39,805 bases of DNA from Fluviicola sp. (GTDB lineage: Bacteria > Bacteroidota > Bacteroidia > Flavobacteriales_D > Crocinitomicaceae), in NCBI GenBank assembly GCA_020849495.1, contig JADLGD010000117.1, positions 1 through 39,805 of the forward strand. The letters run 5' to 3'. Numbering within the stretch: the first letter of the stretch is position 1; every line of letters begins with the position of its first letter. A program made the translations under genes and the position numbers. Below, in pieces: positions 19,943 through 22,062 of the stretch. Under the pieces are notes generated by a model. That model had not been told where the DNA came from. It saw only the letters and a list, made by a program, of their open reading frames with translations, and made no database searches.

Positions 19943-21873
<1,931 letters not shown>

Positions 21874-21896
21874 TTCGAAGCAAAATAATTGAAAAG

Positions 21897-21922
21897 AAGC
21901 GCTGAAATTCAGCGCTTTTTTT
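21897..21922 (+). terminator. Intrinsic terminator after groEL
   Basis: AAGCGCTGA (21897-21905) pairs with TCAGCGCTT (21909-21917), a 9-bp stem with a tight 3-base loop, followed by a T-run to 21922. It lies 23 bases after the groEL stop. Confidence 0.88.
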
Positions 21923-21934
21923 GTTGGAACAACT

Positions 21935-21942
21935 TATCTTTG
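21935..21942 (+). promoter_or_regulatory. Promoter -7 element before the candidate small RNA
   Basis: TATCTTTG is a full match to TAnnTTTG and lies just after the groEL terminator. There is no TTG at ideal -33 spacing; the closest are 8 and 11 bases upstream. The inferred start is about 21947-21950. Confidence 0.5.
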
Positions 21943-21947
21943 AACCA

Positions 21948-22062
21948 CATTATAGTTTCCCATTTATTGGGAAGCTTTCACGGTCCTTCTTCCCCCGTTT
22001 TTCGGGGATAGAACGGAACGGCACTATATATTAAAAGGCTCTGATTTTTCAGAGCCTTTTTC
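21948..22062 (+). ncRNA. Candidate structured small RNA between groEL and the M48 protease gene
   Basis: No coding frame is apparent here, but the 115-base stretch has a -7 promoter element before it, a strong terminator at its end and nested complementary segments. The outer helix pairs TATAGT (21951-21956) with ACTATA (22023-22028). Inside are hairpin TTCCCA/TGGGAA (21957-21962, 21968-21973, loop TTTAT) and a longer hairpin CCCCG/CGGGG (21993-21997, 22003-22007, loop TTTTT). The longer hairpin is extended by TTCT/AGAA (21987-21990, 22010-22013) and TCC/GGA beyond it. The 5' end is an estimate. Size and shape would suit a 6S-like RNA or another conserved Bacteroidota RNA, but I cannot assign a family by eye. 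Confidence 0.6.
22033..22062 (+). terminator. Intrinsic terminator of the candidate small RNA
   Basis: A perfect 12-bp stem pairs AAAAGGCTCTGA (22033-22044) with TCAGAGCCTTTT (22049-22060) over a TTTT loop; the T residues of the right arm continue to 22061. This is the second terminator after groEL, so it very likely ends a separate short transcript. Confidence 0.88.

Follow-up and report, generated by a model that had tools for sequence, protein, structure and literature searches.

A structured RNA family downstream of groEL in Fluviicola and related Crocinitomicaceae, with a candidate protein-binding internal loop

In Enterobacteriaceae an sRNA is released from the 3′UTR of the glutamine synthetase mRNA (PMC9731577). 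Rfp18 of Flavobacterium psychrophilum is conserved within Flavobacterium and is reported to act on protease mRNAs (PMC9723704). Two further RNAs invite comparison (PMC2864571): 6S-Flavo (RF01685), which is found in Bacteroidetes and has a model of 108 positions, and Pseudomon-groES (RF01721), which was found in Pseudomonas, is named for groES and is listed as probably cis-regulatory.

The RNA described here resembles each of these in part. Like the 3′UTR-derived sRNAs, it is a small RNA located where a housekeeping or stress gene ends. It differs from the glutamine synthetase sRNA in that no Rfam relation was found, Hfq was not detected in the genome, the core is strongly structured with an invariant loop, and the RNA is sometimes detached from the gene. 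With Rfp18 it shares independent transcription (predicted here), structure and flavobacterial conservation; the two are set apart by description only, the available part of PMC9723704 mentioning no groEL link for Rfp18. It occurs in the same phylum as 6S-Flavo, but has no match to RF01685 and a different fold. Like Pseudomon-groES it is a structured RNA tied to groES/groEL, but it has no Rfam match, and it follows groEL. The literature searched, with subscription papers lying outside that search, contained no account of this RNA.

The window is a stretch of 39,805 nucleotides from Fluviicola sp. (GenBank assembly GCA_020849495.1, contig JADLGD010000117.1), in which the groES and groEL genes are followed by a compact series of hairpins (Table 1). 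The initial annotation had described a groEL terminator, a −7 box, two internal hairpins and a 12-bp terminator, and all of these are present in the sequence. We propose, with a probability of about 0.5, that the region encodes a member of a new family of ~115 nt RNAs located beside groESL, which would act in trans as a protein platform and would be an autonomous gene in Fluviicola.

Table 1. Features of the groEL locus and of the predicted RNA (positions in the window)
Feature	Position	Strand	Basis or remark
groES	19943-20221		upstream of groEL; ORF list
groEL (543 aa), constant upstream neighbour of the RNA	20242..21873	+	ORF list
groEL's own intrinsic terminator, AAGCGCTG/CAGCGCTT with T run	21892..21923	+	sequence, fold
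−7 box TATCTTTG, exact TAnnTTTG, the RNA's own predicted promoter	21935..21942	+
Predicted transcript of ~115 nt: hairpin 1, core hairpin, AUAUA linker, terminator hairpin	21947..22062	+	extent inferred
Hairpin 1, TTCCCA/TGGGAA stem	21954..21976	+	sequence variable, stem in most relatives
Core hairpin with CCCCG/CGGGG; closing pair C21981-G22020 invariant, helices covarying	21981..22020	+	alignments A1/A2
Invariant internal loop: YUUC (21989-21992) facing AUAR (22008-22011)	21989..22011	+
Internal-loop mismatches U21991.U22009 and C21992.A22008; closing pair C21993-G22007
Conserved unpaired linker, 3′ end YAUAUA	22021..22031	+	A2 columns 69-74
Terminator hairpin AAAAGGCTCTG/CAGAGCCTTTTT, 12-bp, T run	22033..22062	+	sequence, fold

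The + strand of the whole RNA stretch folds with −50.3 kcal/mol (z −7.1 to −8.1 relative to dinucleotide shuffles), and none of 200 shuffles folded as well. Removal of the terminator left z at −5.05, and the middle hairpin alone gave z = −3.06. The structure therefore exceeds chance, as the initial annotation had supposed. The minimum-energy fold of the + strand consists of three separate hairpins. It does not contain the outer helix (TATAGT/ACTATA) that had been thought to close both internal hairpins, because the G and T of this helix sit in hairpin 1. The helix is not conserved either: the exact sequence occurs in only 2 of 103 relatives, and in these relatives pairing of the outer flanks within a species is no stronger than pairing across species (mean run 3.97 and 3.87, respectively; top permuted mean 4.10). 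The closing helix was rejected.

A DNA search of relatives revealed a core of ~55 nt that also follows groEL elsewhere in the family. A covariance model (R1), built from 12 sequences, matched 101 of 150 sampled Crocinitomicaceae genomes at E ≤ 0.1, and the RNA was nearly always present in a single copy per genome. The window's own genus, Fluviicola, and the genus Crocinitomix both carry it. Of 249 genomes sampled from the order, a second model (R2) matched 91, which belong to just two families, Crocinitomicaceae and one other (f3, 13 genomes); the R2 search elsewhere in the class gave nothing convincing. Covariance-model E-values are rough, but the matches are credible because wherever the groEL end is in view (101 of 101 loci) the RNA follows groEL in the same orientation, and the model carries no groEL information. 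Two matches (L119 at G000:C52 and L202 in G604) were treated as chance and L196 was excluded as uncertain. Exact-pattern matches in Marinicaulis, Prevotella and a Methanoperedens MAG were also attributed to chance; they fail the model and have no groEL. The RNA is missing behind groEL in one genus (g7; five genomes checked directly, L209-L213) and in genome G026, and is therefore not essential throughout the family. The natural loss behind groEL in g7 may be of help in finding the function of the RNA.

In an alignment of 81 distinct sequences, which was fitted to the model and so favours the modelled structure, 94.3% of the cells of the core hairpin were standard pairs, compared with 76.8% after shuffling, and the covariation score was 0.516 compared with 0.202. 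Compensatory changes in relatives, a check named in the initial annotation, were found in the form of 184 cells with double changes against 52 in the shuffled alignment; 11 of the 13 core pairs show them. With slid partners, pairing dropped to 31-46%. RNAalifold recovered the same core stem unaided. The stem is also visible in the first alignment, which was made from sequence only (91% versus 82%), and motif-only anchoring, which does not cover the apical pairs, yielded more pairing than expected in the outer section of the core. Among 103 relatives hairpin 1 has 96 distinct sequences, yet in 85 of the 103 it is at or above the 95th percentile of shuffled sequences. Some relatives have a weak hairpin 1 or none, e.g. 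Crocinitomix and G032, whose divergent RNA lacks it. At the position of the terminator hairpin most relatives have a hairpin followed by a T run. Hairpins 1 and 3 are terminator-like in many relatives, which would suit tandem terminators with nothing but chance structure between them. This reading, to which we give practically no weight, is already refuted by the covariation of the middle hairpin, which also has an invariant internal loop.

Conservation of the core is concentrated in a few positions. In the internal loop (YUUC/GAUAR) neither the two U columns nor the adjacent C-G pair vary among the 80 distinct rows, the A is kept in 78 of them, and the outermost C-G pair of the core is likewise constant in 80 of 80. 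Columns 69-74 of alignment A2 (YAUAUA) have T in 71, A in 80, T in 80, A in 79, T in 71 and A in 75 of the 80 rows; the AUAUA tail opens with AU in every distinct row. The pairs of the core helix are free to change while the loop letters are constant. Judged from the sequences, loop letters that stay constant within interchangeable helices are the trace expected of a tertiary contact or a protein site. Two other interpretations of the sequence were rejected. A small protein was dismissed on the evidence that there is no ATG in 21947-22031 and that the loops vary by single bases, and CCTCCTT as an anti-Shine-Dalgarno-like motif is not kept in other clades.

The Rfam scan named as a check in the initial annotation (Rfam 15) found no match at the gathering threshold in the window. 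Permissive scans gave scattered weak matches only, mostly to terminator-like stretches, and nothing credible. The 6S-Flavo model did not match the region at E ≤ 10, nor 19 relatives at E ≤ 1. Neither RF00013 (6S) nor RF01685 had a match in the genome, but RF01685 was silent in every control genome as well, so its absence from this genome is not proven. The bacterial small SRP RNA (RF00169) was rejected as an identity for the region; the SRP RNA of this genome was found, above the cut-off, at C133:9416-9513. 6S and 6S-Flavo were rejected for this locus; the fold is three hairpins in place of a long rod whose centre opens into a large bubble. A 6S RNA that has diverged in this lineage would supply the 6S gene left unaccounted for by the two models, and the silence of RF01685 in all controls makes the missing 6S weak evidence; moreover, the covariation outlines a core hairpin of 13 pairs interrupted by a small internal loop, unlike the 6S architecture, and 6S matches were not obtained at permissive thresholds. 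We consider a divergent 6S very improbable. The initial annotation had offered a 6S-like RNA (6S-Flavo), another known Bacteroidota RNA or a new RNA; the first two are unsupported, and the lack of any Rfam match speaks for the third. It is almost certain that the region represents a real structured RNA family that is undescribed in Rfam.

In F. psychrophilum the TAnnTTTG box is located at −12 to −5 (PMC9723704), which places the predicted start in the window near 21947. An exact box ending 9-15 nt before hairpin 1 was present in 19 of 95 distinct upstream regions, whereas 0.37 would be expected. Elsewhere in the 70 nt scanned there are just two more exact boxes, which end 6 and 7 nt before hairpin 1. 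Covariation, synteny and this position-specific promoter box together make a strong case for the separate small structured RNA proposed initially. In many relatives the core begins just 20-40 nt after the groEL stop, and there is no clear box of the RNA's own. In these the groESL transcript probably ends with the RNA, which could act there only inside the groEL mRNA. In one locus (L071, G167) a full −7 box, TAATTTTG, lies immediately before the RNA and begins with the TAA stop of groEL.

In its position behind a coding gene, in the same orientation, the RNA resembles the 3′UTR-derived sRNAs, the detached Fluviicola copies being the exceptions. The next downstream gene is on the opposite strand in 58 cases and on the same strand in 30, and a role as leader of that gene was rejected on account of this mixture. 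Within Fluviicola three arrangements occur: the RNA is adjacent to groEL without a clear box (G009, G010, G011), adjacent with a box (G000, G002, G005, G006, G008), or detached from groEL by 0.8-3.4 kb (G001, G003, G007, G012, G013). The gap is filled by one or two opposite-strand ORFs of 464-510 aa in G001, G007, G012 and G013, and by a same-strand ORF of 190 aa in G003. The four copies separated by opposite-strand genes keep both the structure and their own promoter box. In one Fluviicola clade (L045, L050, L057, L061, L062, L063, L066) the third hairpin has no T run and is followed by CTTATAA; in the detached loci of this clade CTTATAA is near the end of the convergent gene.

These arrangements bear on the possibility that the RNA is a cis-acting 3′UTR element of the groESL mRNA, serving stability, 3′ end formation or as a protein site, of which the free Fluviicola copies are an offshoot. 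The strict same-strand position downstream of groEL in 101 of 101 loci fits such an element, as does its frequent location right behind the groEL stop, after a hairpin with a U run. The fold and the −7 box are, however, retained across ~1.6-3.4 kb containing opposite-strand genes, so that the RNA is unlikely to be only an element of the groEL 3′UTR. In addition, groEL of the window has its own terminator ahead of the RNA, and 19 of 95 upstream regions have the exact promoter box in a fixed position. We regard the cis element as quite unlikely.

The RNA probably acts in trans, chiefly because it is kept where opposite-strand genes part it from groEL. It may do so by pairing with mRNAs through the UUUCUCG linker or the CGnC..AUAUA linker; as Hfq was not detected in the genome, an RRM protein might assist. 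Such an antisense sRNA would agree with the independent promoter box and terminator, with the two RRM proteins encoded in this genome, and with the small RNAs of Flavobacterium that are thought to pair with mRNAs (Rfp18; PMC9723704). Against it, the best conserved unpaired stretch consists of A/U only, a poor seed, and the conservation is centred on an internal loop within a helix. Pairing of the RNA with the start region of groEL, the mRNA target compared, was no better than that of shuffles (mean z 0.08, n=69), and antisense control of groEL through this region was rejected (for groES there were five cases only). We think an antisense sRNA unlikely, and estimate that the main action would be through a protein at the invariant loop rather than base pairing by about two to one.

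A trans-acting protein platform is favoured because the invariant part is a loop within a helix of freely changing pairs. The core hairpin would be the candidate binding site, holding or delivering a regulator, and the linkage to groEL would couple the supply of the RNA to chaperonin expression. In genomes without the box the RNA would be the 3′ end of the groESL transcript, released or acting in place, and in Fluviicola it would have become an autonomous gene. The short spacing without a clear box in many relatives weighs against this reading, as does the missing RNA in g7 and G026. More doubtful is the broader claim of a new class of protein-binding regulatory RNA, made together with GroEL in the absence of detectable Hfq, that has escaped from groESL in Fluviicola; if true, it would be a visible case of a 3′UTR element turning into a free sRNA.

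The findings enlarge the small set of sRNAs described for this phylum by a well-supported RNA family, here in a genome without detectable Hfq. The link to groEL allows a direct test of chaperonin-coupled RNA regulation, and with three states side by side in Fluviicola it can be studied how an sRNA gene arises from the 3′UTR next to it.

Some database records carry titles at odds with their content. The complete genome of locus L169 (CP034120.1), titled Glaciecola amylolytica THG-3.7, has a groEL 94% identical to that of the window together with an RNA of the Fluviicola type, and the name of the record looks wrong. MAGs titled Chryseobacterium gleum or Candidatus Kuenenia (L160, L164, L171, L175, L180, L182) contain a Crocinitomicaceae groEL and the RNA; these are probably mislabelled or mixed bins.
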